From assembly GCA_021014325.1 (NCBI GenBank), contig CM037463.1:1-64000 (forward strand): a stretch of DNA of 64,000 nt. The letters run 5' to 3'. The position numbers and the translations under genes are program-made. Below, piece after piece: positions 24,832-62,800 of this stretch. Below the pieces are notes generated by a model. That model searched no databases, was not told the DNA's origin, and worked only from the letters and a program-made list of their open reading frames with translations. This DNA comes from Plazaster borealis. Its lineage: Eukaryota > Echinodermata > Asteroidea > Forcipulatida > Labidiasteridae. Position 1 is the first letter of the stretch; the number at the start of each line of letters is the position of its first letter.

Positions 24832-25587
24832 TCACCTTTTTGCTAATCGTAAGACTATTGAGCTACGCTGTTTGTCCGGGGACACCACTGTCCATTCGGG
24901 GTCGTTGGGGTCATCAATCTCCTCTGGACCTGACGATTCTTCAAGCATCTCCAGAGGGCTGTTTCTTGAAGATCCACTCTCTAGTTTGATGTTGTTCACT
25001 GCATTCTTAGTTACCTCGGCAACGTCTTCTGTTGTTAAATTGTCCATCTCATTTTCCTCTGAAACCTCTTGCACCGAACCCAACTCCACAATATCAAATT
25101 CATCCAGGGGGAACTTCCTGTGGGGCCAGGGGTTCTCCACATAGCCAAGCTCTTCAAAGCTGCCCACCATCGAGTTCTCTAGATTGGTGTCACTTGCGCT
25201 GGACGATCTACGCTTCTCCCATGAACTAGTTCTCATGCGATGGGTGGTGCAGCTACTGCTACTCAACAAGGGGGCACCACTCGGGCTCAACGCATCCTGG
25301 GTGGTTAGCGGGGATGGGGCATTAGACGAGTTCACACTGGAAGGCAGGCTTTGCTCAAATAGATTAGCATCCGGAGAGTAAGGCTCTGGTGTGCCACCCT
25401 GACTGTTGTTGCGGGATCGACGTGCCCCTCGGCGGTGGTGTGTATGTGTCTGATTGGCCAGGATCGTCAGGTATTTCTGACGCTCAGTGACCTCACATTT
25501 TGCGTGGCGCTCAGTGATCTCTGTATCTGACAAGTTCTCCTCTCCTTCCTCTTCTTCCAGGGGTTCCTCTTCCTTTTCTGCCAATTT
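24832..25587 (-). CDS. KANSL1: KANSL1 terminal coding exon (end of PEHE domain and C-terminal tail)
   Basis: The acceptor TTTTGTAG precedes 25587 and the exon joins in phase 0. It opens with an acidic stretch, then [20 protein letters not shown], which completes the PEHE region. A Ser/Pro-rich tail contains [17 protein letters not shown]. The TGA at 24834-24832 follows RLAKR. The stop overlaps the sequence AAAAAG|GTGAGG, which also resembles a splice donor, so an alternative 3' exon is possible. Confidence 0.88.
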   Translation of the reverse strand, partial: KLAEKEEEPLEEEEGEENLSDTEITERHAKCEVTERQKYLTILANQTHTHHRRGARRSRNNSQGGTPEPYSPDANLFEQSLPSSVNSSNAPSPLTTQDALSPSGAPLLSSSSCTTHRMRTSSWEKRRSSSASDTNLENSMVGSFEELGYVENPWPHRKFPLDEFDIVELGSVQEVSEENEMDNLTTEDVAEVTKNAVNNIKLESGSSRNSPLEMLEESSGPEEIDDPNDPEWTVVSPDKQRSSIVLRLAKR

Positions 25588-28500
25588 CTACAAAACAACA
25601 AATTAAAACATTAAAATTTGACATTCTACAACACTATACATAATGGTAGCGCTTATCAGTAGCTAATTACAATGCCTATCGGTAAGGAATTGCATTTTTT
25701 TAATAGCCTCATTTCAAGGCCTGCACATGCATGATTCTGTATGCTGTATCTGCGGTAAACACAGCATTATGTTTTACCGACTCACTAATGGCTGCAAAGA
25801 CCACAATGTTCTCATGAATATCGATTATAATTATCAACAGCCAATCACCGCCCATTCACATTGCGTGCTTCCCTGTGTGTTCAGTTTATCATGGAGCAAT
25901 CCTATAGATCGTTGTACATGTACTGAACATAGGATTTACAGACTTCGCGTGTGCTGTAGGCCTATGTGTAGCCGGCAGACCAGGAAAATTTGTTATTTTA
26001 ATAAGTCTTTTTCCTTTTCTTTTGGCGCTTCCGCACTAAAAGCGGGTACACATTTTGTGATCCTCTATTTTTTTTAAAGCGGAAATTAAATAATTGGCAT
26101 GGTCAGTGAACAAAAAAGCGGTCAATGAAAAAGCGGATATCCGCTTAAAAGTGGAGATTTCACCGGCCTGCTATTGCTATAATTAACTAAATAGGAAGCT
26201 ACCTGAATGAGCTGTTGTTCCTGGAGGTGATGATTCAAACAAGCGGCAAGCTTCTCCCCTTCACTCAGTCTCCTCCACTTTGGCGTCATGATCTCCTTGT
26301 ACTCCAACTTCTCCACCCTCGTCGATGCCAGCATCGAGTATGGGATGACGATGTTGTCGATGTCGTACTGGTCAGAGTTCCCCCCTGGACGTCTGGGCTT
26401 AAGAAAGTTTTGCAGGGATGAGGAAGGCATGGAGTGGGAGAGGCCACCACTTGCCGTACCATCACCTAAGGTCGTTGTTCCAGGGTGGCTGGACATGCTG
26501 CTGCTAAAGCACAGGTGATCCTCGATGTTTGGGAGGGAGAGACTCCGAGCTCTGGTCTTCTTCAGAGCAGCTTTGGAAAGAAATTATTGATGGGTGTTAC
26601 TTGTCTGGTTTCAAACCTACACCCTTTAACCACTTGATGCTGGAATACCTGCATATATACACACAGATTTCCCGAACAATGGGAGAACGGGTAAACATGA
26701 TTTCTGGTTGGGTGTGTGAGTGGTTAACATGGCAAGGCGCTAAATATGGCGAGCTCAACAGACAAGTAAAGTGTGGACTCACTCATGTAGATTTTGTGTG
26801 GAGCATGAGCTTGGAGTTTCACACCTGGATTGCAAGACACATGGGGACAAAAGGCACTGGAACACAGGGATATTTTTGTAATCCCTTCTTCAAGACCTTT
26901 GTTCCTTTGTCCGACATACCAGGATTTTGAAAGACCGAATGGCTACCAAGACTGGTCTTGTAGATTTTTCCACCAAATTCGACCTCTGCATTTATATGGC
27001 ACCTTAAAAGGGTCAAGGTGCTTAAGCATGATATTCAACCCTTGAAAAAAGTCTGAAAATTTTCATTTTGAGTAAAACCACTGCCACTACTGACAATTAC
27101 ATTGCAATTACAATGCATGGTCATCATCACATCACCATTGTTGTTATTGGCGCAGTGCTGCAGTGCTGTAGACTCTTCATTCGTCTTTTCTCTCTAAGAA
27201 TTTTTTCTCCAGAGGCTATGATTATGATGAGTTTTCCAAATGATCTGCCAATTATAGCTACCACTTTTTAAATATTCAATTGCCCTACTCATTGTTTCGC
27301 AACACAAGCTTGATCACTCAGCCACGGCACGTTATACAACACAGTCCAACATCTCAAGCGTTGGATGATTATGATGGTGAATAGTCCATGCCAAAGTACT
27401 ATACAGTACTTAGCAAAACAGAGTCTAGAAAAATGTGATGCTGGATTATGATTGGTTAAGATTGACTAAGGGTTCCTATACATACCAATGGCTAGCTGTG
27501 CAGCCCGCCTCTTTTTGATGTCCGTGCGACACCGCCTGTTGATCTCGTCTGTCAGCAGGTTCTTGGGTGTCCCTGGAAGGGAGTTGGCTTTGGAGCGAGG
27601 GCGTTTCAGGATCTTTCCATCCCCTCTCCCATGTCTCATGTCTTTCATTGCTTTGGGAAATAACAAACAAATATGACTGCTCAATAAAATTTGAAATAGT
27701 ACAGGTTATTTGGAACCTTTTCTGTTTTCAGCCTTTGCATCTCTTTTAGGAGGATTGCAAAATCAAACATGGGGTAACTTGGAAGTTAAACCTCAAATAG
27801 CCAAGGTGTAAACCTCAAATAGCCAAGGTGTACCTTGGAAAATCCGGCAGTTAAAATAGAGTTACTGCTTGTGTATTGCACATCTGTTTCAAAATTTAGA
27901 ATGGTATAACCGGGGCTCAAATTTAAGGCGGACAAATTCCACAAGACCGCAGGGCCTGTAGTTCAGAATGTTTACTGGACCAAATTTTTGTTCACAAGAC
28001 CAGAATAAAAATTGGAAAAGACATGAAAAGACCGAAATCAAAATGATGACACAGTTTAAACATATACATGTAAACTGTTTTTAATTGAGAAGATTGATCC
28101 CATTAGTTGTTGAAACTTAACAGAATTGAAAGATATTTATCGGAATCAAAAGTCAAAATTTGAACATATTAAATATAATACCTTGACAAACATGAAACTG
28201 CCAGACTTGCCAGTCGCGAGTTCACTGGACCGACACAAAAATCACTGGCCTCGGGCCTTCAGTCCAGTGTAAATTTCGAGACCTGCATTACATTCTATTT
28301 GGATGGGATAAGTATTCTAGTGCACATGGACCGTTCTGTTAAACCATCAGAATCTTCCATTGGAACTTTCAAGATCCTAATGCACGTATTCACTCGTGTA
28401 GGATTGCTCCTGCACTTCGGCACTATCATGCGGTCCAATGGAACGTTGTGGTGGTCCAATGGATTGCAGGCATGTGCACACGCTAACCTTCTTTTGCACC

Positions 28501-31500
28501 TAGAATGTGCCCGACTTTTGAGACGCTCCCCTAGCAATGCACATACAATTCATTGCTTAATGTATTACTCCCTCCGACCTGTAAAATTATTTAAGTTTTT
28601 TAACCAAGTAAAAAGCTGAACACCTTATGCTCAAATCGTTTTATTTTCCACACTGAGATTAATGGCAAATGTGCATCAACTGCAAACCTTAAACAGAATT
28701 TTACCCTTTTTTTTTTATTTTACAAACTTTTTAACCACCACATGTTCTTAGTTTATGTTTTATAAAAATCACTTGGAAGTACAATTCACGATAAGTGGGA
28801 TAAAACATCTTTGCTTTTCCTCTGAATAGCTGTTAATTTTGACAACAGATGGAAACATTGATGACAGAATTTTGTAAACACCATAAGCTGTATCGAGACA
28901 ATTAAAAATACTAAAATACTCATACAGTTTATGCAATCTACATAATCAAAATATAGAAAAACTGCAGCTGAAGCTTGGTACCTTCTTTGTTCTAAATAGG
29001 TTTATCAGTTATGTAAAAATGTATTTTTAACATAGTCCCTGCCCCTTTGTTTTCTGACTACTACTTTGAGTACTGGCTCAAAATCAATCAATCAAAATCC
29101 TGCATTAGGCCCTATTTAGAAAACAATGCAAAGTGTAGTTTGGGATGCAAGTGTTAAATCCATCAAACTACAGGAAATATTGAGACTTTTGGGCCCAAGA
29201 CCTCTGTAAAACGTGGGGAATCTTTTGACCTATTGTTAAGTTCAGGACTTTAATGTTATTGCACAGCACACACAGGGGTACTAATATTCAAACTTACTCT
29301 GTGCAGCCAGTTTGCGGAGCATTTTCAGGGACTTCTCTTCACCGGCATTCTGCCGTCGTTTTGTCTTGTCTTTGTCCTTCCTCTCATACTTCCGTGTGGT
29401 CTTCCGTCCTTCTTTGCCTTCTGTGGGTGTGCTGGGGCGACGCTTTCTGTTTAATGATTTGTGTAGTAATAACAACATTTTAACTTCTACTATTTATTTC
29501 AAATAGACACTGTACCGAGGCATTGCATAGTGGGGAAGGAACATGAATTTTGGTTTGCTGTAACAAAAGTTCTAAAAATAATTGTTTTCAGTTGCCATGA
29601 ACAGATTAGTTGTTCAAGAAGACTTCTCGAGACGACTACAGCAGGCTCGTTAATATGCTGAGACCAAACTCGTCTCACTCAGGGATTTAAAGGTATTTAC
29701 GAAAGTCTCCCTGATCCAAAACTATTTCAGTGGCAATACTATATTCTACTCATAGAAAGTAGACAGCACATGGCATCATCGAAACTGTCTTGACATTTTG
29801 GTAAGTAAATAAAAAAATTTTTACTCTCTTTGATTCAAGACACTCGGTTGCTTTGACTAACCTCAAACAAAACTAGTGACGGACTGACAACACAAAACTT
29901 ACTTTTTCATGTTCGACAATTTTGATGGTGGTGGTTTACGTTGCCACTCGTTGCTTTTCATCATTCCTTCAAACTGTAGTGAAAGTGGAATATCTACAAG
30001 GAAGATTTGGTGAAAAGTTTTATGGAACAAATTATATACACAAGTTATACCAAAATTAAGTAAACATATGTGTGCATTTTTTTCAGTAATATTGTTCACT
30101 TTATTAGTGGTCTAGTGGTTAGACATCTGCTTCAGCAATGCAACGGTCGTGGGTTCGAATCCCACCTGAGTGATTTGCCTGTCAATTTTTTTCACAGAAC
30201 TCGGGAAAGTACCGAGTATACATTGCTTAAAACACATCGGTGTAAGGGTAAAAACAAATTATAATGTTCACATTGTGATTAAGCCTGGGCAGATACTTTG
30301 AATAACCGAATATCCGCGGATAGCTTTTGCCAACCGAAACCGCAGTTACAGTTTTTGAACAATCTGGATATCCACGAGGGGGGTGGATACCTATTAGTAA
30401 CCCAGATAGTTCTCCAACGACAAATCCATGCTCTGTGGTGCAGATAACCGTAATAATATTATCTGCGATTGTCGGGCCGATGCATTTCACACACTAAGTC
30501 ACTCACAAACACACGTCGACGTGGCTGGACCATACCAATGTGTAGACTGTAGAGAGTCTGAGACAAACCACGCTCCAGGCACTAAAGGCGTAGACCACGC
30601 CTCCTCGCTATTGTGGTGGAAAGTAAACAAGCCCAGATTTCAATTACTTGGGAGGATGGCGCGTAAGTTTTTATGCACACCTGCAACAAGTGTGCCATTC
30701 GAACGGCTGTTCAGAATCATTAGTGCCAGCAATATAGTTAGTGCTAAAAAGTACTCCTTCTTTGCATGCAGAAACCAGCATTTGCTTTTCACATACTGTT
30801 CCAAATAACTAATGGAGCCCGAGACCAAGCGAAAGCAGTGGTTTCGAAAAGGGCTTTAGTCTGGCTCTCTCCTCCATGTTCCATACAACAATACAAAGGC
30901 GAGTTGGGAAACACACAACTCAAATTTCCAGGGTTTGAAGACGACTGGTGGAGTCTTATCTCAACCTTGTTCTGGTTATAATTCATGCAAAATTATAACC
31001 TCGTACACATAAACACATCGCTCTCGCCTCACTATTTTTTCAGGACCGCATGCCTTGCATGCTATACACAACGATCGGATCGTCATGCCACTCTTTCGTG
31101 TTTGTGTACCCACCAGTAGTTGCAGCAATAAGCGTCTTTTGTGCATCCTTTTCAAGAAATGGTGGGTCAAAAAATAAGTTGGTAGTATGCAAATGTGTAG
31201 CAATGGTGCATCAATTTTGTAACTCAACGAGCATCATTGTACACTGAGACATGACTGACATAGGCCTACTGAACATTGACGCACCATTCCCAGCCGGGGT
31301 CATGTAGTTTGTCTTGCAATTGACAAGTGCATAAGCCCACAATCACGTAAGTAGGCTAATGAAGATAGAAACAATCACGGATAGTTGGCCGGCAGATACC
31401 CGAATACCAAATTTTACTGTACGCCTAGGTTTAATTGTGATTGACCCCTCAGGGGCCTTTCTGAATCCATTAGCTCCCTTCAGCAAATGATAATTCAACA

Positions 31501-34500
31501 CTCAAATAAATAGATAGCTTGCATGCCTGGCCTCATGACATACAATGAAAACGGTTTAGGAACACAGTGATCCATCAAAATCAAGCAAACCAAGGTTTTG
31601 CTCAGGTAAGATTTTGGGATAGTTCACCCTTACCCCCATAAAGCCCCTCAACAATCCGCCAAAATGCTCCACTCTAGGGTAACTTCACAATAAAACGTTT
31701 GGACTTGGATAAATTGAGTGTGCCTGGCCCAATAATAAGCATTTTTGTTTGGTCCTGCATTGCCACATCCTACAATGTCAGACAACTTCCTGAATAGGAT
31801 CTTGGAGGATTTGGGAGTCTTGGGGTTTGTGGGTAAAGGTTAGTGCCCTAGATGCTCTTGGAGATTTACAAGACAGCAATTGCAAGAAAAGTGACCACAG
31901 CCCAATAGCTGTTTATACTCACTGGCATTTAACCTAAATATTTCAACATGGAGCTACAGTAGACCCATACATAAATCACTTATCTGGCACCAACCACGTC
32001 ATGATGCAAAAAAACTTTCTTACCCGAGAGATTTGAGGTCGGCAGTAAAAATAATAATCATAACAATAATCAGAAATTTCTCCATAAAAATTCATTGTAG
32101 GTTTTTTGTATTAAGTCTTATTATAAATGTGAAAGAGGTGAATTATGAAATGTTTTGAATAGATATATGCAACTCACTTTATGCTAATTTTACAGGAACT
32201 ACAAAAGCGCAAAATTTACCTTGTGGGAAAGACAAGACTGGATGGAAGGAGTAATCCAACTGAGCCACTCTCTCATTCAGTGGGGCCATGTCTGGTTCCT
32301 TTGGCTTTTCAACATGATTAAACCGACCTCCGCACATCACACAAGGCATAAGGGGTGGGCAGCAACCACACCGAACCGATGACAACTTCTGACTTTTGCG
32401 GCTATAATGATGCATGTTCATCGTTCGGATTAGTTTTCGCTTGCGAAAGTACCATACAGGTCGCGTCCTTGCACAGTAATGTTCCTCCGGGTTGATGGAT
32501 GATGGAGAAGGGAATGAGTTCATCTCCGGTTGTCTGTGGGAGCCAATCGGTGAGGCTGATTTGCTGTTCAACACCGGACTCCCATAAGTGGATGAATTGC
32601 CTACAATACCATTCATAGGTTTTGTGTGCGGCATCTTTCCAGCAGCTGTTGTTGGTGTGCTGGATGCCGTTGGAGGCAGTGGAAGCCCAGACATAGGGGA
32701 TACACAGTTCTGGAGAGATTTCTTCAGCCTTGCCGTCTGCCGGTCGACATTGCTCAGCAGGGATGACAGATTTGATGGGGACATCTCCTGGGATCCGCCT
32801 AGCCGTGCAATCTTTGCTTCGATTGGAGAAAGCTTCCGATTGGTTTTGGTCGACGTCATGACGCGCACCTTCATAAGTTCTTCTGTTGAGGATGGCTCTC
32901 CCAGGACAGCAACGCCTTTACTAGCCCGCGTCTGGCGATAAATGTCACTCTGTTGTCTGATGCGATATTCTAAATCAGATACCTGTGCTTGAAGCCACGT
33001 CCAGCGACTGGCAATAGAAGCTCTCTCCACGGCCCACTTCCATACAGCTCGCCTATGTCTGCAAACATGATACGAAATTCACTTCATGAGAGTAAAAAAT
33101 TTGCTAACTTTAAAGGTTGTGGATTAAACATTACCAAATTGTTGACGTCTTCGGCCTGTTGAAAAACCTTTCGTACAACAATTGAATTAAAAACCATATG
33201 GCATCTTCAAGGCATGAATTTAAAAAAAAATCAAACTCTTGACAACCGGGTAACAATCTTCTCTCAAAAATGAATCCCTCTGAAAAATAATGGTGTTATA
33301 TTTTCACAGACAATGGAAAACGAAAGGTTTGGACACATGGGCTTTGTCTTTCTTTCATTTGATTGTGTTCATGTATTCCTAGTAAACCTGAAAAAGGAGA
33401 ACATCCTAAAATCAGAAAGATATTCCGATAAATCATATTATGATAAATAATAGGCCTGTATCTTACTATTTTTTGTGATCTTGTTCTTCAACAAAGGTAT
33501 TTTTCATTGTGCAAGGCCCTCCCCAGTTTACCATAAATATATTCACGACTAGTAGTAAATGAGAATATTTTGTATTTGTTTGACTCATCTGTGCCTCTTG
33601 AAAATGAAAGTCCCTCTTAAGTTCAAATCATGTTTGATTCCCATTTGTGTTACATATGAACTACATGTTTTGTATACTTTTTGCCCGAACAACAACTTAC
33701 AATGGTATTTTATGCTTTTGTCGAGTTTGTGCGTAAGATGGTAGAGTGTCATCCCCCTCATCACAGCTCTCTCCTCCAGAGCTGCTCTCCGTTTCATTAT
33801 CGTCTACCCAATTCTCCACATGATCCAACTTAGATTGGAGCTGTCTGGCTGCCGTCTTTACTGACATGTTTCCTGACACATCAACGTCTGTTGGTCTTGT
33901 CGGCAAAAGCTTCCGCTTATGGTTACAAGTTCGAGGGAGGTGGCTATCCCCGATGGTGGCATCTGGGCCTGTGCTACCAGTCGGCTCCTTCTGTGATGTT
34001 GATGCAACATTAACATCTGCTAGATTTGATGATGAAGAATTCCGCTTACATTCTGGACAACCTTCCGCATCAGCCTCAGCAGCCTTTTCTTCTAGATTCT
34101 TGTGCTGCTCTTGAACAAAGCTTTGAATCTGCCGTTGACTGTGGGTGCTAATGTGATTAGCCTGCAATCTTCTGAGTTTTTGAACAAGCTGTCTTGCCCG
34201 CTGTGCTAAATGTGAGTTCTGATCGATGGCGCATTGTATTTGGTCTGGTGCCAAGAGTTTAGGTGTTGGCGAATTGCTGGTCACTGCATCTACTTGTAAC
34301 ATTCGTACGAGACTACTAACCTTTCCATAGTTTACAATCATATCCTGATCAGTAACATTGTCCATTCTATCAAAAGAGTGGATTTTTATTTCACCACCCA
34401 GCGTATCATCTTCAGCTTCTGAAGAGTCGGCAGTGGCAGTGGAACTGCTACCTGTCGCATCAGTTTTATTCGCTAACGAGAGAGATGACGTTTCTGGAGG

Positions 34501-35058
34501 CATGGTGGTGGCTACATGGGCACTTGTCTGACAAGGTTGCTGCTTATCATTTGCTCCAGAGACAGTTGAATGACTCATTTTCTTAATGTTGTTCACAACA
34601 GCCTCGCCCCCGTTGTTCAGGCCAGGACCCCTGGCTGACAGGGGATAAGTACCAGTTCCCACTGCCTTTCCTCTCTCTAACTTCCCAAGAAGTCTGAAGT
34701 TCTCAGGAATTCTACCTCTCTGAGAGTTTGCTTTGAAAAGCCTGACCTTTGACCTATGATTATTGATCCCCGATTTATTCTGGCTACCTTGCTTCACCAA
34801 TGGGTCTCTCTCATACCCAGAGTCCTGGATGGTTTGATCAGAGTCAATGTGTGTGTGGTTGGAATTAGAGTGACCGTTGGGTAACCCTGGGCTTGTCGGA
34901 TCACTTGGGGTGGCTTCGAAGCCAGCTTGTCCAGGATCCGCAGGAGAGACCGGCAACTTAAAACTAGAAGGATGGGCAGAAGCATCGGTCAAGGCTGGAG
35001 CCATCGCAGCCATGCAGCATAGCCTGAGGATGGCTGTCACACCACCAAGGCATGGAGA
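24832..35058 (-). CDS. KANSL1: KANSL1: KAT8 regulatory NSL complex subunit 1 (seven coding exons)
   Basis: A nuclear scaffold of the NSL histone acetyltransferase complex. In known members it binds KAT8/MOF through its PEHE domain and binds WDR5, supporting H4 acetylation at promoters. CDS = join of 35013-33701, 33058-32220, 29993-29903, 29446-29298, 27650-27486, 26570-26203 and 25587-24832 (- strand). All junctions are GT-AG and in phase, giving 1,226 residues against about 1,105 in human. The start [10 protein letters not shown] at 35013 matches the family N-terminus. A helical segment lies at about 275-325. The [18 protein letters not shown] tract is near 457-474. ARTRP at about 634-638 is a WDR5-binding-like motif, followed by a Cys cluster at about 664-690. 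The PEHE domain at about 920-1020 includes NIVIPYSM and [12 protein letters not shown]. The two ends of the protein are well supported; the promoter and 5' untranslated exon(s) are unresolved. Confidence 0.93.
26203..26570 (-). CDS. KANSL1: KANSL1 coding exon 6 (N-terminal half of PEHE domain)
   Basis: A 368-bp exon, acceptor TCCAAAG before 26570 and donor CAG|GTAGCT after 26203. It contains the KAT8-binding core: [28 protein letters not shown], and a helix ending EQQLIQ. Confidence 0.93.
27486..27650 (-). CDS. KANSL1: KANSL1 coding exon 5
   Basis: A 165-bp exon, acceptor CCCAAAG before 27650 and donor G|GTATGT after 27486. It encodes a basic region containing [20 protein letters not shown] and [18 protein letters not shown]. 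Phase 1 at both ends joins cleanly to its neighbours. Confidence 0.85.
29298..29446 (-). CDS. KANSL1: KANSL1 coding exon 4
   Basis: A 149-bp exon, acceptor AAACAG before 29446 and donor A|GTAAGT after 29298. It encodes a very basic Lys/Arg-rich segment (KRRPSTP, then alternating Lys/Asp/Arg), plausibly a nuclear localisation or nucleic-acid-contact region. Confidence 0.85.
29903..29993 (-). CDS. KANSL1: KANSL1 coding exon 3
   Basis: A 91-bp exon, acceptor TTGTAG before 29993 and donor AA|GTAAGT after 29903. Joined in phase to exon 2 it continues the conserved stretch after HPVLSFPQ with [20 protein letters not shown]. Confidence 0.88.
30099..30265 (+). mobile_element. tRNA-derived SINE, copy 1
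   Basis: Pol III internal promoter boxes are present. The A box TGGTCTAGTGG lies at 30108-30118, with a clean D-stem (GTCT/AGAC) beside it. The B box GGTTCGAATCC lies at 30152-30162 within a 5-bp T-stem (GTGGG/CCCAC). The acceptor and anticodon stems pair poorly, so this is not a functional tRNA gene. A tRNA-unrelated tail (TTTGCCTG, CACAG, CGGTGTAA) follows and is shared with the copy near 61640-61803. It sits in KANSL1 intron 2, antisense to the gene. Confidence 0.75.
30280..31433 (+). mobile_element. hAT DNA transposon, internally deleted
   Basis: The element is bounded by inverted ends TAAGCCTGGGC (left) and TAAACCTAGGC (right, reverse complement). An exact 8-bp target duplication ATTGTGAT flanks it at 30272-30279 and 31434-31441; 8 bp is the length typical of hAT elements. 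Inside, the + strand keeps the transposase C-terminal dimerisation region and nothing upstream of it, so the copy is non-autonomous. It lies in KANSL1 intron 2. Confidence 0.85.
30614..30790 (+). pseudogene. hAT transposase C-terminal dimerisation fragment
   Basis: The translation shows [20 protein letters not shown], then [13 protein letters not shown], matching the pattern of the hAT family C-terminal dimerisation domain (W-x-x-N, P-x-L, A-x-x-x-L, P-A-T-S-x-x-x-E-R-x-F). The BED zinc finger and the DDE catalytic core are absent. The usual GN-x-x-S-x-x-R region after ERLF is degraded. It is a fossil with no expected activity. Confidence 0.85.
32220..33058 (-). CDS. KANSL1: KANSL1 coding exon 2
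   Basis: Acceptor TTTGCAG precedes 33058 and donor CAAG|GTAAAT follows 32220. The exon carries the strongly conserved [18 protein letters not shown] tract, the ARTRP motif, the RCGCC...C..C cysteine cluster and [16 protein letters not shown]. Together these identify KANSL1 without the PEHE domain. Confidence 0.92.
33701..35058 (-). CDS. KANSL1: KANSL1 coding exon 1 (contains start codon)
   Basis: The acceptor CCCCCTATACAG ends at 35059. About 45 bases of 5' untranslated sequence precede ATG at 35013-35011. This start is chosen because [10 protein letters not shown] is the conserved family N-terminus, and because the upstream in-frame sequence reads through the splice acceptor. The exon encodes residues 1-437, mostly low-complexity Ser/Thr/Gln-rich sequence plus a helical segment containing [10 protein letters not shown]. 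The donor TT|GTAAGT at 33701/33700 leaves phase 2. Confidence 0.9.
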
Positions 35059-38000
35059 CTGTATAGGGGGGGAAATCAAAAGAATATATTAAAGTTGTGC
35101 CAAACCAGGCAAAGCTTTTATATATTTATTTATAATTCAAAGATCAGTGGAGTTTATTTGCCTGGAGTCTTCATTGAAAATGGAGATTCGTCACATTAAA
35201 ATTTCTAAAACAAGTCTCACTTATTCTGTTGTCATTACCTCTAAAAAAAAATTAAAAAAAAAAAAAAGGCAAAGTTTGTCCAAACCTCAAAATTTTCACT
35301 GACTTGTAAATCACATAAACAAAACATGGAATCTCTATCTGTGGTTTTCAATATAAATGTTGGAATTTACTGCAATTTCTGTTTCTCCCAAAAAGTAAAT
35401 TTTTAGGGTCGCACTAAAAGCCAACAACTAACAACAAGTTTTAAATGCACTAAAAAACCTGTTAGAACATAAATAAATCACAAAGTATGTAAAAGAGTCA
35501 TAAATATCAAAATCACCTTCAATCTATTGAAACAGTTTTTTTTTTTCTAATTTAGAAAAACAAAATTCTTTACCGCAAAGTAGTAAGTTCAATAGTACTG
35601 TCCACCATCTTGCTTTGGACCAAATCATTGCCTGCAGGGGTAGCCAAATTGGCAAGTACTATGTGCAACATGATCATGGTAGCATGCAGCCAGTCCATGT
35701 TATCATGTCACACTCGGGGTTTGCAATTTATTTAGAAAAATAAATTCATGAAAGATAGTTATTTTCTTTAAAAAGAAAACTGGGGGAACAGCAGTTAATA
35801 CTTTTTAAAAAGACAGCTTAGGCCTCACAAGTTACCCCTGCAGGATAATGGTATCGTCCAAGAACGGTCAAAGGCAACATGGCGGACGATACTAGGTTTT
35901 ACAACTTCGTGGAAAAGAATTGGTTTATTCCTAAGTTAATAATACAATTTGTTCAGCAGATTTAAGGTGATTTGGATATTAATGACTCTTCCACATCAAT
36001 ATTTAACGATTTACTATGACGTTCTAATGTGGTTTTTCAGTGCATTTAAAACTTGTTGTCGGCAGTTGTCATCAGTTGTCGGCTTTTATGCTGCAACCAA
36101 ATTTAATTTGTATAATCTACTTCTCCAGAACCAAGACAGAATACTTGGTATACCTTTCTAAATGCGTATCCCGTTTTAAAAATTGGCTACCTACTATCTC
36201 TGATAAATGGCACATGAAATGTTAAAACTATAGTATTGGCTTCATGATATGAACACTGTGAATATGATAGATATAAATATAACAACCGTGAATATCAAAT
36301 AGCATTATTAACAATTTAGGATAACCATTCAAAAATTCTGATTTCAAAATATTATCCATTTGCCGACAATACTAGACAAAACTGAAGTGGCAAGGATGAC
36401 ATTCTAAAGTTGGCCTGTTGCCAGCATGAGGTAACTAATGTAGAATGCTCAACAAAAGTTCATGTGAATAGTGCAACAATACTTGTAAACAGAACAAATT
36501 TCTAAAACAGTTGTTTTTTCTTAGACCAAAGAGGTCTACTCTTTTGCATAAATTGAAATATTTGGTTGTAAAGCATGACAGTCTACTCATCATTTGTAGA
36601 CTATGTCGAAAACATTGGCACAGAGAAACATTAAAAATAAAACAATAAAAACTGTTCATTTAATCATGAACTGTATCCGTAAGACCGTAGTCAAGCTCAT
36701 TTGGTTTGTTTACGGTCGTTGATACATTTGTATTTTTAAGGCAAACATCATGATCATGGAGTGAAAAGACTATTTTTGAGGGGAAGCTAACACAATGAAT
36801 AAAATGAATAAAACACCAAGTTTTTAAGATCAAGCCCCAAGGGGAAAAACACAAGACAATGTTTCCATAAAAAATCATTGACTTGGTTTTGTCCAAAACA
36901 CCAAACATATTTAGGGGCCTACCAAAATTAGACCAACCAAGACCTTTCTGCATGATCTGGCAGATTTTACTTCAAAAGGTCGGCCATTCACGCAATAAAA
37001 TATTTCACAAACTCTTATATTATTTAATGATGTTGCGCCAAAATTACCTGACCTAGATTTAGTTGAGCTGTATGGCCTTGATGAGCCTGCAGCTTGTCTG
37101 TAGTGTTGTTTAGTTTAAAAAGCATAGCCATTTCTTTCTACTTGTTTGTGCCATCTTCCCATTTTTCCAAAGTTCTGACTGGTATTGGCTTGTACGGTTT
37201 TTGCAATGAACTTTCCCAGCCCATTGGTTTATTGGCGAAATGGTCACATTCATTATCGATACGTCACTCTTTATAAACATCATAACCTACCGAAACTGGC
37301 CAGTGTTGTGAATGTATGTAATTCATACACATGATACACGTGACATACACAACTTCCTGGGCATTTTCCCGCGTAAACCCGTCATTTAATTAGAACATTT
37401 GGATGTTGATAATTACAAAGATATATTCCTTTCTCCAGAAACAGACCTTTCAAAGGCAAATGAGCCGACTGCCGAGGCTAGGGGTTCACGAAATTTCACT
37501 GGAAACACAGAGAAGTTTGCACCGTTCGTCGAGATCATCGCAAACCGCAGAAGCGAAGAGTTAACACGTGACCAGGGGTAGGCCACGTTCCTTCTGCAAA
37601 CACGTCTCGCCAAACCCGGAATCGTGGAACCACCCTTAATTTTGTCGGCTTTGCTGACCTTTTTATGAGAATTTTCCTTCTCCGAATACCAATGTAGGAC
37701 GAAATGATTGTAACCCTCGCCTCTCAGACTGTTCAAACGGCAATTCCGTGATGAATTGCGCCGAGACCTGGCAGCAAATTAGAACGAAAGGCTTGGCTAA
37801 AATGGCGGCTCTTTTCTTCATTGATCTATCGCATCGTTGATTGAACGTAATGCATGCTGCTATGTTTTACATGCAAATCGTCCTATTCTACCCTGCACTT
37901 TACCACCTACGTACGTACATAGGCAAAACGTCACAGATAAACACACACACAAAAATGCATACTTCATTTACATGCATGGCGGGTAGGTTGCGTCAATTGA

Positions 38001-39431
38001 TAGACCCCCTCTAAGCGCTATTCCCTTATTGGTCAGTTTCTGTAACCACGCTCTTGGAATTAGTGTACGCTTATCACACAAAGTTGCGTAAATTGAGCAT
38101 TTTTGAATAATATCATCAGTACATAAAGATTTATACAAATAATCAATGACAATTTTAAACAATTTTACTAACAAAATTAGTATTTTGTTGAAGTATCTCT
38201 TTTAATAAGATAACAATGTTTATCTCTGTATTATGCACAGAGGGAAACAAGCAATAAAAAGAATGTCCGGGTGCGCAGACAAAAATTATTAGACATTGTG
38301 CCGTCAACTATTGGTCCGGACGTATAATGTACATGTACAGTACATACATGTACAGTACATACATGTACATGTATACATGTACATGTACACCGTTGGTACA
38401 ACCGGATCAGTCTGTTCAAGTCTAAAAAAAAACGAGCACAGAATGAGGCCTAGATACTAAACGATTGGATGGTCTGAAAAGGCAAAGAGTGGACCGACTC
38501 ACTGTAACCCCAAATAGTTGTTTTTTTTAAATAGGTTTAAATAAAACTGCATTAACAAAACATCGGAAGATTAAACGATAACTTATTGTTGTTCAAAATG
38601 GATGTATAGGAACGTGCACGTGCATGTAGGTCTTTTGGCGGCTTTAGTTAATCTGTATAGATCATCATAGGTCCACAAACGAATTTGCAAGTTTCCATAA
38701 AAAAAATAAAAAAGAACGATGTGATGAAGATATCGTTATGAGATGCGATTGGGATGCGATTTCATGTTTTATGTTTATGGGAAAATCATAGCTGTTTCAA
38801 ACTGCTTACCAAACAAAAGAACCCATAAATAGTATAAATGCAAGAAAGGATGGCCGGGCGTTTCGACCCTGTACTAACACTCAGTCTTTCTCGAAGGCTA
38901 AATGACAACACAACACGCATTATACAGCCCAGCCTTCTGGTGTATAACAGAAGCAGTCAAGTGGAAAGAAATGACAGTTGATAGTTTTTAACCCGATTCA
39001 AGTAGAACAACACGCCAGTAGCTGAATCGACGTCGTGTTCTTTTTTGGTACTTGGGTTTATTATATAAAGAGCAATGACAATGTTTTTACACTTTCACCA
39101 ATTAGGCTACCACAGATCGACAACAAACCTGTATTTTATCGTGGAATTTAAATTAAATAGTCTTTTTGAAAACTTCTTCGTGAGCCACACTCAACCGTGA
39201 GTGACTGAAGCAGTACTTGCTGGCTGCAGCTGTGCACTGCGCCATCCCCCATGCACATTTATTTCAAAGGGCAAACTTTTCCGCGGGTCTCGTGGTCAAT
39301 GTTATCAATGTGACGTTGGTTCACTTCACAAGTGGTCCAAAAGGCGTGCACTCTTTAAGATCTTTTTTCGTCACTTTACAAAGAGGACATCATTAGATCA
39401 TAGAGAAAGGACCATAGATGAAGGCCTATTA
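35059..39431. other. KANSL1 upstream region or first intron
   Basis: No coding sequence is recognised. Two YY1-like ATGGCGGC/ATGGCGGAC tracts occur at about 35879 and 37801, in AT-rich surroundings. Either could mark a promoter, but no transcription start can be assigned. A palindromic ACATGTAC simple repeat lies at about 38328-38390. A GAAAGACTGAG...TCGAAACGC hairpin-like string occurs on the - strand near 38850-38900. Confidence 0.45.
38328..38390. repeat. Self-complementary ACATGTAC simple repeat
   Basis: Repeated TACATGTACAGTACA and ACATGTACATGTA strings. Every unit is its own reverse complement, so the stretch can form hairpins on either strand. Confidence 0.85.
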
Positions 39432-39460
39432 CGTGGTTATGGCAAGCCATATGCCCAATA

Positions 39461-40098
39461 ATTCGATAAGCACTGTTTATCACCGATAAACACTGTTTTT
39501 CGCCGATAAACACTGTTTTTCGACCGATAAACACTGTTTTTCGAGAAAAAACTATGTTTATCACTTGATAAACACAGTTTATCTTGATAAACACTGTTTT
39601 TCGCCGATAAACTTTTTCGCCGATAAACAGAGTTTATCGAGATAAACATTGTTTATCAACTGATAAACACTGTTTATCGAAAAACTCTGTTTATCGCTTG
39701 ATAAACAGAGTTTTTCGGGGTGATAAACAGAGTTTTTCGATAAACACTGTTTATCAACTGATAAACATAGTTTTTCGAAAAACTGTGTTTATCGGTCGAT
39801 AAACAGAGTTTTTCGATAAACTCTGTTTATCACTTGATAAACACAGTTTTTTGATAAACATAGTTTTTCGATAAACACAGTTTTTCGCCGACGCCAAGTG
39901 CTCAATAATTCGATAAACTCTGTTTATCACTTGATAAAGAGTTTTTCGATAAACTCTGTTTATCACTTGATAAACACAGTTTTGGCGGTAAACACAGTTT
40001 TTCGCCGACGCCAAATGCTCAATAATTCGATAAACAGTGTTTATCATTCGATAAACAGTGTTTATCATTCGATAAACATAGTTTTTCGATAAACATGG
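39461..40098. repeat. Left arm: about 30 GATAAACA/TGTTTATC palindromic units
   Basis: The units share an AAAC-N3-GTTT core flanked by GAT/CGAT and ATCG or TTCG. Many are fully palindromic (GATAAACANTGTTTATC). Two internal copies of the element-end motif (CGACGCCAARTGCTCAATAA, at about 39890 and 40003) interrupt the array. Confidence 0.9.
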
Positions 40099-41019
40099 TT
40101 ATAAAGTCTGCCTCGGGAGGGCGCTGTCCTGCAGATTTGCGCTCAAATTATTGGAGAGTTTGTTGTCGACACGGTGACAGTGTGTCCTATTTCATGAAAT
40201 TAAAGGAACATTACAGAATTGGTTTTTGCTAACAAACCAGTTGCTGGCAGTGTAAGCACTTTATATAATCCACCATATACATAAACTGACAAACCTGTAG
40301 AAGTTTGAGATCGATCGGCCATCTGGGTCACGAGAAAATAGTGAAAAACCGATTACACATTTGCATGTGTTATACAATGCATGAATAAAACGCTCATGAG
40401 CGATAAACTCCAATCGGAAATTAGTTTTATTTATTTCTCATCAAATATGGCAAATATGGGTTTCCAGTTCCCCGTTTCGGGTTTTCCGTCCTCCCACATC
40501 TAAAACAACATTTCTTACCTAACGTTATTCATCCTGTTATTAGCGCTTGTACGCCGTTGTGTTGGATGTGTAAGGAAATAAATTTCATATCCATATGATT
40601 ATATTAGTCTACGTTTTAGGGATGCTGGTAAAATCTGTTAACGATTTTTACCTCTCGAAAGCTCGAAGCAAACATGAAACAGGATGAAAAAGGGGTAACA
40701 GGGTAGGATTTGCAGCCCGTTCGACTCTATTTGGTAGTGGGGCGATTAAAGGCTTCGATAAAGCCACCAAGAGTAGTGCATGTAACAGTAACTTCATGGT
40801 TTGCAAACCATTGAAGTTGTAGACAATTAAGACAATACGGGGAAAATTAATGTTATAAACTGATCAATTTCAACTATTTCGCATGTGACATAGAAATAGT
40901 TACACCCGGCGCGGTATATACCTCGCAGGTACACGTGTATACCAGCTGCATTGACAAGAGCGCACAGCTCTGCAAGAGCGGGCACTATGGCGCCCTCTTT
41001 AGACGGTGTACGAATAACC

Positions 41020-41560
41020 ATGTTTATCGAAAAACTATGTTTATCGAAAAACTATGTTTATCGAAAAACAGTGTTTATCAGTCGATAAACAGAGTTTTTT
41101 CGCGATAAACTCTGTTTATCGGCGAAAAACAATGTTTATCGAGTGATAAACACAGTTATTCTCAACAAACAGTGTTTATCGACTGATACACACTGTTTAT
41201 CGAATTATTGGGCATTTGGCGTCGGCGAAAAACTGTGTTTATCGAAAAACTATGTTTATCAGTTGATAAACAGTGTTTATCGAAAAACTCTGTTTATCAC
41301 CCCGAAAAACTCTGTTTATCAAGCGATAAACAGAGTTTTTCGATAAACAGTGTTTATCAGTTGATAAACGATGTTTATCTCGATAAACTCTGTTTATCGG
41401 CGAAAAACTATGTTTACAGGCGAAAAACAGTGTTTATCAAGATAAACTGTGTTTGTCAAGTGATAAACATAGTTTTTCTCGAAAAACAGTGTTTATCGGT
41501 CGAAAAACAGTGTTTATCGGCGAAAAACAGTGTTTATCGGTGATAAACAGTGTTTATCGA
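41020..41560. repeat. Right arm: about 25 palindromic units in inverse order
   Basis: The same unit as the left arm, arranged as its inverted counterpart. One internal end-like motif (ATTATTGGGCATTTGGCGTC) lies near 41203-41222. Confidence 0.9.
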
Positions 41561-41591
41561 ATTATTGGGCATATGGCTTGCCATACGTGGT

Positions 41592-42877
41592 ACACATTAC
41601 ACCGAGGATTGAACCATGGAGTAAAGGCAATTTCCAGAGTAAGTATAGGCCTACCCGCCTGGCCCACTACAACACATGCAAGCTGGAAGGCGCACAATCG
41701 ACACACACCACGGCTCAGCAGGCACAAAGACACGGATCACTGCCATTCAAGTTTGACCCGTTATTTTTACCTGATTAACTTGAACCGCAGGCGACCATGA
41801 CACATACTAATTGTTATATGCATAGTATCAAACGCGTACATCCCTGCTCAAACGGTCATGCTCTGATGCAATAAGACACACCCATTTGCAATACTCATTT
41901 TACTTTCGTTTCACGCGCCACTCTCGATGGTTCGGAATATCTCATTACCAACTTGCGGGCTTCCTAGTCTTTAGTCTTTAGTCTTTAGTCTTTAGACTTA
42001 GTCTATTGAAGAAGAAAAAAAATTGACTCCATCATTTGGATTTCTGATCAGTCAATCAAGCCAAAACAGAAAACGAGGTGGTTTTTTTCCTGATGGGTAG
42101 GCCTACTATCATAGAGAAGGACAAACTCTGGTACTATTGAGTGGTCCTTTAAAAAAGTCGAACTTCCACGTTTCAAGTCATATTTCTGTCGTCGCATTCA
42201 ATGTATTACGATCATTATTCCGAGTAGAGATTGTTTGTCAGGTTATCTTCGATTTCCCGGCACTGGACAAACACGAAACAAAACAAAACAAAAATGTAAC
42301 AGTTTTACATTCTTGTTTTGTTTTATGGGGGGCGGGTTGTGTTTTGGGGGTATTTTGTTTATTATTATTATTATTGATTTATTTTTATTTTATTTTTTTT
42401 ATTTATTGTTTTTGTTTTTTTTTTTGTTTTTTTTTTTTGGGGGGGGGGGGGGGGTTGTGGTGATAGGGGAGGCACTGACACCAATGGTTATTAAATTCCA
42501 CTGAACGATCACATCATACACGAAATCGGTGACGGGAGCATGAGAGTGTGACGTCAGCTTTACGGTAACTCAGTTGCCAACACCATTGACGTAGCTAATA
42601 ATTTTTCCAACGCCATTGGCTAGAACCGAACCAATGTCCTTACGTAATTTCCATGTACTCGCTCGACACAGTAAGGCTGAATTGGCGGCTACAGCCACGG
42701 CTACGACTGTCGCTAAGGGTGTTGCTAAGGGCGTCAAATAAACACATGATGACTGGGATGTCGCCGTAGCGTACCGGAACCGCCATTTCGAAATGAGAAG
42801 CAATAATTATATCTCAAGAGAAAATATTGGAGCTTAACTAAAGACAAAGTAGCTGATTAATTTAAAAGCTCACTTAC
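41592..42877. other. Non-coding region with simple repeats
   Basis: Contains an AGTCTTT heptamer repeat (about 41967-42000), a T-rich then G-rich low-complexity tract (42355-42455), and one copy of a dispersed GC-rich repeat (42681-42735). No gene is recognised. Confidence 0.6.
42681..42735 (-). repeat. Dispersed repeat, copy A
   Basis: On the - strand it reads CCCTTAGCGACAG, then CGTAGCCGTGGCTGTAGC, then CGCCAATTC. This matches a second copy at 60493-60537 on the + strand with scattered changes, so it is a dispersed family, probably a MITE. Confidence 0.65.
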
Positions 42878-56800: not shown

Positions 56801-59800
56801 GACAGTGAATCTTATATCGAAGAATTAACAGCATTTTCCTGCTGTTGACTTACCAGGTGGTGGGTTACACCGACAGACCTCACAGCCATTCTCATTTTCT
56901 GCGAATCCGTACGTGCAATACATCTTGCACGTCACAGGCTCACAAATTTCTGGAATTGAAAAAAGGTCAAACAGCTTTTTTGAATTAAAGTGATTCATAA
57001 ATTGTTTACAAAATCTTCAATCATGTGCGCCAAAACACACCTTTACAGAGATTGAATTTTCAAGTCCAAGGCTCCAGTGCAGGATCCAGTTTTACCACGC
57101 ATCACCGAGCTCCATTTCCCGCCTCTACTTCCCGCCTTCGTGCATCACCAAGCTAGTCCCCATCCACAGTACTTAAGCAGCATGCAGCATCAGAGTCCAG
57201 CTTTCTCCAGAAGACGATCAGAGCATACTGATCGAAACGTCGAGTTGAAACCAACGGTTCTTTTCAGAACCACCCCCAACTCACATAGAGAGATTATTAC
57301 ATGTACATGGTGTCACCGCAAACCTTTCCATATAAGATAATCTCCACTAGACAAAGGTCTTGAAGCTCAAAAATGATACTAAACCATAATTATTTCATTT
57401 CAAAAAATCATTCCTTTCTCGTATCGAACTAGGTTTCCGTTGTTTAATGAGCATTGTACGTAATGGTCTAATGAGTCGAATTTCAATTGAAATGTTCTAT
57501 TGGATCATTTTGCAGTGAAGCCTTGTTTGGAAACTTAAACTACCAAAACAAGAGGTGAAGACAAGTTATACTCGGATTATTTTAATAAACAAGACAATCT
57601 TGCCTAAGATGCCTACCTCTGGATGGCTTATTACACTTGCACACCTCGCAACCATTCTCTGTCTGAAAGCCGTAGCGGCAGATTCTTCTGCATCTAACTG
57701 GTTTACATTGCTCTGCAAAACAGAAGAGGAAAACTATATAATATCCACAAGTAATGTGTTAATGTGCATGTAACAGTTACTCTAGACTGGTCCCCTGTCT
57801 TTATCCGTAAGGATAAAGACAGGCACTGTTCTTACGAACCCAATGGTTTCATTGGACAGACGTATACAAGCAATGAAGTACAACTACCAGACTAATACAA
57901 CATACATGTACATGTGTTTGTGTCGTACACACACAGTACTATGGCATACAAGGTCAAAGGTAAATCTGGCAGGAACCAGTAGTTTCTAAAGGCTGGTATC
58001 TGGTATTTTCATGCGCCTCAAAGTTTGATGTCAGATGTTCAGGGTACCGGTACATGCTCTCCTGCACTTCCCCAAGCATTCATACAAGCATCTTGGGACA
58101 GCCGACCGGAACTACTTTCATTGTGTGCATCACGTCCGAAAATTTTCTTGGATTCACAAAGAAAAATTGTAAAATAATTACTCATGGTAAAACTGCATTG
58201 TTAAATTATTTTACAAGCACACATTGATAAAAAAGTACTTAATGCTCACAAAGTCTCTGTTTCAGGGTGAAAATAAGTGTCAAACCTCTTGAAGTGTCCC
58301 GCTGAATAACAAAAAAAATGTTGGCCACTGAGAAAGTTTTTTGTCGTGACATCATGTACCTGGATCAGCCCCAAGTAACTCGCTCCACAAGCAGGTTACT
58401 TGGGTATGACCTGGGTGAGCCACAACAATATCGTCAAAGCTACTTGAACACACTGGGGTCAGACCTGGAAGAGAATTGAACACACCCTGTGCGTGTAATT
58501 CTGTATCCATAAACAGGATTTGGAAGCGCCCTCTTGTAATGCAAAAAACACATAGGTGCTGTCTTTGTATGTGTCCCAAAAAGGAATTACAGGGAGTGTG
58601 TGTGACATAATATGCTCTTAAACCAACCAACTTACAGAGTACTCAATGGGGACAATACAAATCAACAGAGGACATTTTATGAAAAGGGACAATAGAAGAA
58701 GAATAGAATTCTCCCACTTAATCATGACGCTAAGAGTGAATGTGCTTACCCTAGGAACAAAGGATAGGTATTTACAACCTAACTAAATAACCCTCGTTGA
58801 GGGTTCCAGCCCATTTCAAAAACATAATCCATTTTAAGTATGTCTGGCACATAGAATCAGTTGATTAGGAAGATTTTGTTTTCACGTCAAGGGAATAACC
58901 ACTTATAGCAGGAAGGGGTGCGGTAACAGGAAAGGGTGCTGGATAACCATTTAGCAGGAAGAGGTGCAAGGATAAAAACTTAGCGGGAAGGGATGCGGGG
59001 ATAACCACTTTGCGGAAAAGGGTGCGGGGATAACCACTTAGCGGGAAGGGGTGCGGGGAAAACCACCTAGTGGGAAGGGGTGCAGGGATAACCACCTAGC
59101 AGGAAGGGGTGCAGGGATAACCATTAAGCAGGAAGGGGTGCAGGGATAACCACTTAGCGGGAAGGGGTGCGGGGATAACCACTTAGGTGCAGGGATTACC
59201 ACTTAGCTGGAAGGGGTGCGGGGATAACAACTTAGCGGGAAGGGGTGCGGGGATAACCACCTAGCAGGAAGGGGTGCAGGGATAACCACTTAGCGGGGAA
59301 GGGGTGCGGGGATAACCACTTAGCGGGAAGGGGTGCAGGGATAACCACTTAGTGGGAAGGGGTGCGGGGATAACCACTTAGTGGGAAGGGGTGCGGGGAT
59401 AACCACTTAGTGGGAAGGGGTGCGGGGATAACCACTTAGGTGCAGGGATAACCACTTAGCTGGAAGGGGTACGGGGATAAAAACTTAGCGGGAAAGGTTG
59501 CGGTGATAACCACTTAGCGGGAAGGGGTTTGGAGATATCCACTTAGCAGGAAGAGTTGCGGGGATAACCACTTAGCAGGAAGGGGTGTGGGGATAACCAC
59601 TTAGTTGGAAAGGGTGTCGGATAACCACTTAGCAGGAAGGGATGCGGTGATAACCACGTAGCGGGAAAGGGTGCGGGTATAACCACTTAGTGGGAAGGGG
59701 TGCGGGATAACCATTTAGCGGGAAGGGGTGTGGGAATAACCACTTAGCAGAAAGGGGTGCAGGGATAACCATTAAGCAGGAAGGGGTGCAGGGATAACCA

Positions 59801-62800
59801 CTTAGCGGGAAGGGGTGCGAGGATAACCACTTAGCGGAAAGGGGTGTGGGGATAACCACTTAGTTGGAAAGGTTGTCGGATAACCACTTAGCAGGAAGGG
59901 ATGCGGTGATAACCACGTAGCGGGAAAGGGTGCGGGTATAACCACTTAGTGGGAAGGGGTGCGGGATAACCATTTAGCGGGAAGGGGTGTGGGAATAACC
60001 ACTTAGCAGAAAGGGGTGCAGGGATAACCATTAAGCAGGAAGGGGTGCAGGGATAACCACTTAGCGGGAAGGGGTGCGAGGATAACCACTTAGCGGAAAG
60101 GGGTGTGGGGATAACCACTTAGGTGCAGGGATAACCACTTAGCTGGAAGGGGTGCAGTGATAACCACTTACCACGAAGGTGCAGGGATAACTACTCGACG
60201 GGAAGGGGTGCGAGGATAACAACTTAGCAGGAAGATGTGCAGGGATAACCACTTAGCGGGAAGGGGTGTGGTGATAACCACTCACTGGGAAGGGGTACAG
60301 GATAACCACAGGATAACCACTTAGCTGGAAGGGGTGTGCAGACAACCACTTAGCGGGGTTGGGGTGCGGTGATAACCACTTAGCGGGAAGGGATGCGGGG
60401 ATAACCAATTAGCGGGGAGGGGACTTAGTCATTAGTCATTAGTGGCTTGATTGTCATGTGAACATGCATTGAAGCATAGGAGGCACATAGCGACACCCTT
60501 AGCAACAGCTGCAGCCGTACCTGTAGCTGCAAATTCGAACATGGCCTTTATATCTTGGGGGAGCAGGTTGGCCTAGTGGTTTCTTTCCCTGCCTTTCACC
60601 TTTGTGGACACTGGTTAATCTGATGCTGCATGCTACAAGACAATTATTAGTTGAATTCATGTACTTCTGCTGCAGCATTCATAGTGCAATTGCAAACCAC
60701 GAAGGAGTCCAGGATAGGCCAAGAAAAAGCCGAGTGTTTTCAAGAATTTAACGAGAGGATCTTTAGCTCTACTTACCTGGTCGTTTGCACTGGCAAATCT
60801 CACATCCTTGCTCATCTGTATCCAAGCCGTAAGGACAACGCATGCCACATACCATGGGGGCACAACCTAGAGGAAAATACAGTAATTTTGAGGTCATGAC
60901 AAAAGTTTCTGACCAAATACCAACACAGTGATTAAAGTTCATCTGATTATTACACACCCATAGAAAATGCATTGAACACTTTTTCTTCATACTCAATTAT
61001 GAAGTTTTGGACTTGCCTTTTACATGTTTTGCAAAGACTCATTCTTTTGGATGGTGGAGTAGGGGGATTTAAGTGAAATTACACACAAGTTTTTGCAAGT
61101 TTTGGAGCTGGAAGTAGCAAAAAACAACCTGAGTGTTTGACCAGTGTGTGTGGTATTGACTTACCAATATTAGAGTTTTAGATAAAGGGATGTTTGTCTG
61201 AAATAGATGCTACAACCTCGGCCAAAATGTTTGGGCCACCCAACAATAAACCTACCCTCCCCCATCTCCCACTCAATATTGTTATCATTTTAGATTGACT
61301 TGTCTAGAATTTGTTTCCCATTTTAAGATTGGATTAATAGGCTTTCGAGTCACAGTGGATTGGTTCACTTTTATTTATCCTGGCCATTTTAGAATGAGTT
61401 TTTCTTGTCATCTAATTCAAATAGTTGTTCCTGCCTTTCTGTTACTGTTCCATCATTAGTACTGGAACAGTAACAAATATTACTTTCTTGTTTTGTTGCT
61501 TGTTAGTTGAAATCTTGGCTGAATAAATCATCCTAATGGGGATAATAATCATCATAACCACCCCGGCTGGAGCAAATGAGAGTCAACATAGATCGAGGGC
61601 CAGGTGGCCCAACGACTTATGATTAGGGTTGTAGAGCTAATGTTATTAAGTTACACCACTGTGTGTTGAGCACTGTACATGTTTACTCAAAAGTTTCCCC
61701 TAGTCCTGTGACAACAAAATCCACAGGCATATTACTCAGGTGGGATTCAAACCCATGACCTTTGTCATTCTAGAGCACATGTCTTACCACTAGATGCTAG
61801 AGCTTTTTGTTGCTAGAGCACAGATTCTCAGTCAGGTGCAGGTGCAGTCACTACCAATACAATCATTAGAGCATTGACCATGGGTCTCATATGTCCAGAG
61901 ACCTTTCTTTTGTTCACAAACATTGACCATCATGTTGTATGGACGGCCATACATATCACAAAATGTTTAACTGGGGTTGGCAATTATTTTGGTTTTTTTA
62001 AATAAAACATTTAAACCCTTTTTGAAGGAAGAACGTGCACTTTTGTTTTGGGTCTGCACAGTTGATCAGTAATAGTGGTAATGTTGTAACAATTGTATTA
62101 AATGTAAATTATTGTATTCTTTTAGCAGTGAAGGCTCCCCTAGTTTTGCCAACCAATGTTGTGATGTCTGTGATTTGCAAAAAAAACCTCTTTAAACCCA
62201 ATTCACCTGACGTCGTCATCACAACAATCTTGGTTGTGCCATTTTGGGAGCCAATACCTCAATTTTAGTGCAAATCAAATTTTAGTCTTCACTGCGTTTA
62301 CACGCTTACCTGTTGACTCCCAAAACGGCGAGCATGACAGTCGCCTCGTGTTATGTGCGTGCAATGGGTCAATACCAATTTTGTTCAGTCTGTAATCACT
62401 TAAATTTTGTTTCAACTTTCTTCTGTGTATGGAACAAAATGTTGATGAAAAGGTGACTTTTTGGGGTCGATATATGTATAAAGCAGACTTACGAGGTAAT
62501 TCCATTGTTCTCTACAATGTAGGCATGCTCAGAAATACGTACTCAACGATAATTTACCTAGAAAGTCTGCTGCCACCTAGCATCTCAACACCTCCCATTG
62601 AAAGTGACTGGAAAATTGCCACTCGTCGCTAGTTCTTACCTTGCCTACAGCTATGGCCGCATCCATTAAAGCAACACAGCCCTCCATCACCACACTCGCT
62701 ATCAGATGAACAATCCTCCACACAGACACCACCTCCACTGGCTTCCGGGCATGTTAATTCTTAAAAGGGAAGAGAAAAGGTGTGGCAGATGAGAAGAAGT

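Follow-up and report, generated by a model that had tools for sequence, protein, structure and literature searches.

Structure of the element

The 64-kb stretch of DNA analysed, referred to throughout as the window, opens contig 9 of the Plazaster borealis genome. It contains an element of 2148 bp at 39438-41585, bounded on both sides by CGTGGT, that starts at 39438 with TATGGCAAGCC and ends at 41585 with GGCTTGCCATA (Table 1). The coordinates, inverted ends and CGTGGT flanks recorded in an initial annotation of the window proved exact.

Other features were noted in the window. Gene frames on the minus strand at 24832-35088 gave a sub-threshold PEHE match (28.8 bits against a cut-off of 34), and the element lies on the 5' side of this gene, which we take to be probably KANSL1-like. 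A 12.9-kb array of the 9-bp unit GGGTCTACT extends from 2623 to 15478 and starts inside a frame that comes after a DUF1759 frame at 1497-2159, DUF1759 presumably being a retroelement gag-type domain. A 29-bp minisatellite with a higher-order period of 259 bp occupies 58929-60309.

Table 1. Features of the foldback element and its flanks (window positions).
Feature	Position	Strand	Basis
Left 6-bp target site duplication, CGTGGT	39432..39437	.	Read from sequence
Left terminal end motif TATGGCAAGCCATATGCCCAATAATTCGATAA, TA..TA terminus	39438..39469	+	First 19 bases: 110 exact genomic matches, control 0
Left arm, array of 17-bp palindromes GAWAAAC-N3-GTTTWTC	39438..40100	+	Arm pairing, unit counts, fold
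Core, non-coding, common to most copies	40101..41010	.	Genome search with core
Right arm, left arm inverted, minus one block, inner part diverged, one internal end-like motif	41011..41585	-	
Right terminal end motif, inverted copy	41554..41585	-	Read from sequence
Right 6-bp target site duplication, CGTGGT	41586..41591	.	Read from sequence

The element has the long, internally repetitive inverted arms that characterise foldback elements structurally. Pairing between the arms extends over 113 nt at 99% and over a further 182 nt at 97%. They were measured as approximately 660 bp (left) and 575 bp (right), which replaces an earlier estimate of 540-640 bp, and inside the left arm lie two motifs resembling the ends, GCCAAGTGCTCAATAATTCGATAA and GCCAAATGCTCAATAATTCGATAA. 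Folded as DNA, the left arm yielded -181.7 kcal/mol compared with a mean of -63.3 for 20 shuffled versions (z -27). No stop-to-stop frame of more than 85 aa overlapping the core was found within the window, and no Rfam match was found in 39000-42000.

Genomic copies, insertion sites and age

The genome searched comprises 560.6 Mb in 717 contigs. A search with the element end, as had been proposed in the initial annotation, established that the element is multi-copy: the exact matches to the 19-base end were distributed as 58 forward and 52 reverse, against none in a control in which the pattern was reversed. A search with the core gave identities of 95-100% in the 40 candidates scored out of 1958 found at first look, some of them covering the core partially. 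The core had been described as unique, which holds inside the element and fails genome-wide, where it is repeated.

Among 32 distinct complete copies for which both flanks were read, 27 possess a perfect 6-bp duplication, while matches at 4, 5, 7 or 8 bp were found in none of the 32. The remaining five are a dimer (L058), three copies with one base off (L059, L066 and L068) and one that is unclear (L042). With both strands counted, the target consensus is A-CRCGYG-T, a palindrome centred on CG; the middle dinucleotide is pyrimidine-purine in 25 of the 27 perfect cases. Membership of the Dada group, which is described in the available part of its literature as inserting into multicopy small RNA genes, was considered and is contradicted by the targets, since 26 different target 6-mers occur among the 27 perfect copies and no Rfam match lies around the window copy. 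The outer ends of the copies inspected read TATGGC and GCCATA, except for one end each in L039, L044, L056 and L057; in copy L050 the true right end is absent.

An empty site could be obtained because one copy, L060, has inserted into another repeat. When its flanks were joined with a single 6-mer, they aligned without gaps across the junction to L020 (the same locus as L037), L002 and L071. The comparison with an empty site that the initial annotation had called for is thereby provided by a paralogous site of L060, not by the window copy's own site, and it breaks exactly at the element ends. Two weaker cases, in which small gaps or mismatches lie close to the junction, are L056, compared with the window, and L059, which sits in a tandem array. 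This array, with a repeat of approximately 246 bp, is found on several contigs and also harbours the insertions L013, L005 and L064.

Pairwise divergence of the core averaged 1.3% among 21 aligned copies, which were those of 1.9-2.2 kb taken from a set of 30, and the core of the window copy is the majority sequence of the alignment. In total 39 head-to-head end pairs were recovered, 23 of them 2.0-2.2 kb apart, with a range from 251 bp to 18.1 kb if the longest is a single element. The shortest, L068, consists of the ends and about 10 units and has a near-perfect duplication. The stretch 39438-41585 belongs to a young DNA transposon family with many copies, and this family has been recently active. 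The reading of the locus as a mobile foldback element, put forward in the initial annotation, is upheld by the 110 exact ends, the 27 perfect duplications and the one paralogous empty site.

Some copies have unusual arrangements. In the L050/L058 dimer (C5:15113615-15118005), the second copy starts at the CATTTG of the internal end-like motif in the right arm of the first, and both copies have the common outer right end, with the flank TACGTA. A copy with GGCGTT flanks (L017/L018, C20:31403140-31406186) lies inside a Gypsy-like integrase region with retroelement protein matches on either side, and its core contains another inverted-repeat sequence.

Palindromic units and half-sites

The arms are built from the 17-bp palindrome GAWAAAC-N3-GTTTWTC, of which 43 exact examples were found in the element and none in the rest of the 64-kb window. 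Allowing up to two mismatches, 55 units were counted, which agrees with the figure of about 55 given earlier. In 1000 trials, versions of the element randomised by a first-order Markov model contained a mean of 0.001 units and never more than one. The units had been described as palindromes of about 20 bp. They are palindromic; the size is 17 bp, made up of 7-bp half-sites around a fixed 3-bp spacer. Half-sites number 53 forward and 50 reverse in the element and form 43 pairs at a start-to-start distance of 10, the one forward-to-reverse distance under 26 bp that occurs among them. The spacing between unit centres is most often 21 bp (11 times) or 17 bp (10 times), followed by 19 and 20 bp (four times each) and 22 bp (twice).

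Two kinds of half-site can be distinguished. The strong half is GATAAACA: the base after GATAAAC is A in 61 of 72 half-sites. After the weak half, GAAAAAC, an A stands in 10 of 31. The exact units of the window comprise 16 strong/strong, 27 strong/weak and no weak/weak combinations (Fisher p 0.003, with related units treated as independent), so that all 43 have at least one strong half. Weak/weak combinations were also absent from the 1331 exact units of 30 copies; as units and copies are related, these strong/weak counts represent one evolutionary sample rather than many.

Among the 21 aligned copies, substitutions per site amounted to 0.0065 in half-sites, 0.0070 in the core, 0.0197 in unit centres and 0.0132 in linkers. 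Selection on the half-sites is not claimed, because they vary less than the linkers but not less than the core, and exchange between units without selection could leave the same trace of higher variation in unit centres and linkers.

One explanation of these arrays is that they have no binding function and arose as a side effect of slippage during replication and of template switching within a foldback, amplified by chance and kept as passengers. In its favour are half-site conservation no higher than that of the core in young copies, the differences among copies in the number of units in their arms and the partial, internal end-like motifs that the arms contain. Slippage alone, however, predicts that spacing should drift, whereas the 3-bp spacer gives the only close half-site spacing observed; the absence of weak/weak exact units and linker variation about twice that of the half-sites also speak against it. 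We regard a by-product origin as unlikely.

Alternatively, the arms might serve a host forkhead-type factor and not a transposase. A forkhead protein expressed in the germline would provide open chromatin or expression, and elements carrying clusters of Fox sites would spread. The forkhead-type site is RYAAAYA and the canonical forkhead core is GTAAACA. The strong half GATAAACA contains ATAAACA, which fits the former; the 2.1-kb element has 68 occurrences of RYAAAYA and the remaining 61.9 kb of the window has 179, and the A at position 8 of most strong half-sites agrees with it. GTAAACA, in contrast, is nearly absent, with two occurrences in the element and 15 in the rest of the window. The fixed inverted 10-bp spacing of half-sites is also left unexplained, and to our knowledge neither this spacing nor a weak GAAAAAC half is a feature of forkhead binding. 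Judged from sequence motifs, a role for such a factor in place of a transposase seems distinctly unlikely. The reading preferred here is that the units probably serve as docking sites for whichever protein mobilises the element, by analogy with the systems compared below.

Relationship to known transposons

Drosophila FB and sea-urchin TU are foldback elements with long inverted repeat arms. The element shares with FB, TU and Tetris the long inverted arms of tandem repeats, the short middle and the capacity to form large hairpins, and a resemblance to TU and FB had been suggested in the initial annotation, which named neither a superfamily nor a role for the units. A foldback of this Mutator kind (FB, TU, Phantom, Tetris), whose long repetitive terminal inverted repeats (TIRs) are moved by a MULE transposase, would have the architecture seen here, and most foldbacks seem to be members of Mutator (PMC4079207, available in part). 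Tetris, which is assigned to Mutator in the same source, has duplications of 8-10 bp. The present element differs in having TA..TA termini and a duplication that measures exactly 6 bp in 27 of the 32 copies and 8 bp in none. This length and the TATGG..CCATA termini do not support kinship with TU and FB, and a Mutator-type foldback is considered very improbable.

A 6-bp duplication is also found in Polinton elements, as far as the available part of PMC10045372 describes them, and derivation from a Polinton/Maverick was examined for this reason of shared duplication length. The TIRs of Polintons have AG..CT termini. The element has instead TA..TA termini and a non-coding core, where a Polinton is a large coding element, and long frames are absent from the complete copies examined except for a LINE-like insertion. 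Such a derivation is extremely improbable.

The ends correspond more closely to those of IS3EU/GingerRoot transposons, which have TA..TA termini and 6-bp duplications (PMC10045372, in part). IS3EU elements of rust fungi have TAYGG..CCRTA ends, TIRs of more than 30 bp and 6-bp duplications (PMC12730594, available in part). The TATGG..CCATA termini of the element conform to both descriptions, its arms pair over more than 30 bp, and its duplications are of the same length. In Ginger1 and Ginger2 the termini are of TGT type and the duplications measure 4-5 bp, according to the available part of PMC2836005. The element differs from IS3EU/GingerRoot in being without a transposase and in its arms of approximately 575-660 bp built from arrays of palindromes. 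A transposase of the IS3EU/GingerRoot clade, which is without the HHCC finger, is encoded between the ends by none of 36 complete copies, and because no examined copy encodes a transposase the assignment to IS3EU is made from the ends alone. On the evidence of its sequence, the element appears to represent a new form within a known, little-studied transposon group, in which foldback architecture is set on IS3EU-type ends. No foldback of IS3EU type was found in the literature searched, which excluded Repbase and most subscription journals; since Repbase lay outside this search, the family may already be in it.

Binding sites within or near transposon ends are known in other superfamilies. Galileo, a Drosophila element of the P superfamily, likewise has long, internally repetitive TIRs, and secondary binding sites for its THAP-domain transposase within the repeats have been tested by footprint and gel shift (PMC3688188, available in part). 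Besides the superfamily, the difference lies in the number of sites: in the same source, three (BS1-BS3) are given for the GalileoG TIR, compared with approximately 20 exact palindromes per arm here. CACTA elements (En/Spm, Tgmt*) carry a short subterminal motif in direct and inverted orientation, which is bound by TNPA in En/Spm and can form stem-loops (PMC2613891, available in part). The occurrence of a short motif near the ends in both orientations is shared with the element; CACTA termini, a 3-bp duplication, an unrelated motif and asymmetric arrays set the CACTA group apart.

Search for an autonomous partner

No transposase had been visible in the window copy, and the same is true of the 36 complete copies examined. 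In these, tblastn with the integrase-like protein L080 and its 15 relatives gave no integrase match, and no frame of more than 194 aa was present apart from a LINE-like insertion in L065. A full-length relative with a transposase between the same ends, for which the initial annotation had proposed a search, was found among none of the copies examined. Several oversized end pairs were considered as candidates and proved to be ordinary copies with insertions. They are those of C7 (11.2 kb, of which the first 5 kb was read), with Gypsy-like frames; C19 (5.4 kb), with LINE-like frames; and C6 (3.1 kb), C20 (3.0 and 2.9 kb) and C389 (2.6 kb), in which the inserted sequence is non-coding. In the 18.1-kb end pair of C13, a core match adjoins the first end. 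Eight single ends (L071-L078), followed for approximately 2.2 kb inward, led into ordinary arms, several interrupted by unrelated sequence, and into no autonomous element. Variant ends were also sought: TATGGCAAGCCATATG with any base except C after it had no genomic match, and TATGGCAAGCCAT with any base except A after it had eight, against 16 in the control.

Integrase domains were searched for across the genome. With PF13683, 150 of 487 candidates were scored, and with the IS481 model NF033577, 68 of 1052; both searches returned many long Gypsy-type frames. Four of six matches inspected (L079, L081, L084 and L085) were Gypsy-like by eye and were rejected, leaving L080 and L086 as two integrase-fold families that are not Gypsy-looking by the same inspection. 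L080 is a frame of 491 aa whose first 369 aa match Pfam rve (E 5.5e-12). In the locus that contains it (L080, L082 and L083, C5:13791300-13795900), the integrase-fold frame is followed by frames that are OTU-like by eye, and one of its fifteen relatives in the protein collection has both Pfam rve and OTU. L086 (C7:9031700-9032199), found through the L080 search, matches Pfam rve with an E value of 3.9e-11. Its family is high-copy, with dozens of relatives of near-equal score and open frames of approximately 236 and 341-344 aa, and is apparently young because many matches have equal score.

Neither GATAAAC, GTTTATC, TATGGC nor GCCATA occurs in the 4.6 kb around L080. Distances were calculated to the 100 element ends that were listed of the 110. 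The nearest of the 111 listed matches of the L080-based integrase search is 28 kb from one of these ends, and the nearest of the 68 scored IS481 matches is 72 kb away.

Proposed mechanism and significance

Taken together, these data suggest, with a probability of about 0.6, that the element is a foldback version of an IS3EU/GingerRoot-type DNA transposon, young and non-autonomous, whose arms are predicted platforms for dimer binding and which would be mobilised in trans. An integrase-fold (DDE) transposase supplied by another element would cut at the TA termini and join the cut ends to target DNA with a 6-bp stagger. Each palindrome would be a candidate site for a protein dimer, with GATAAACA as its half-site, and the protein may be either the DNA-binding domain of the transposase or an accessory protein. 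A spacing of about two helical turns would place many dimers on one face of the DNA, and such an array may lend specificity to the short end motif and help both ends to pair. Since pairing is possible between any two units in either orientation, unequal exchange or conversion could spread the palindromic repeats inside the arms.

More tentatively, and at somewhat less than even odds, this may be the first IS3EU/GingerRoot foldback, pared down to a pair of dense platforms that each hold 20-odd inverted-dimer sites. A transpososome of integrase type, or else a forkhead-like factor captured from the host, might be assembled on this palindrome of palindromes. One strong half would then be enough for each dimer, which would constitute a co-operative code of one anchor per dimer.

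Foldback elements have been a structural oddity, mostly filed under Mutator or P. If the assignment of the ends to IS3EU is right, this architecture would have arisen in a superfamily of integrase type as well. Unit, half-sites and strong/weak grammar are now defined at the level of single bases, and, as the copies are young and numerous and have a clean target, the role of repetitive foldback arms, an old question, becomes testable in this family.
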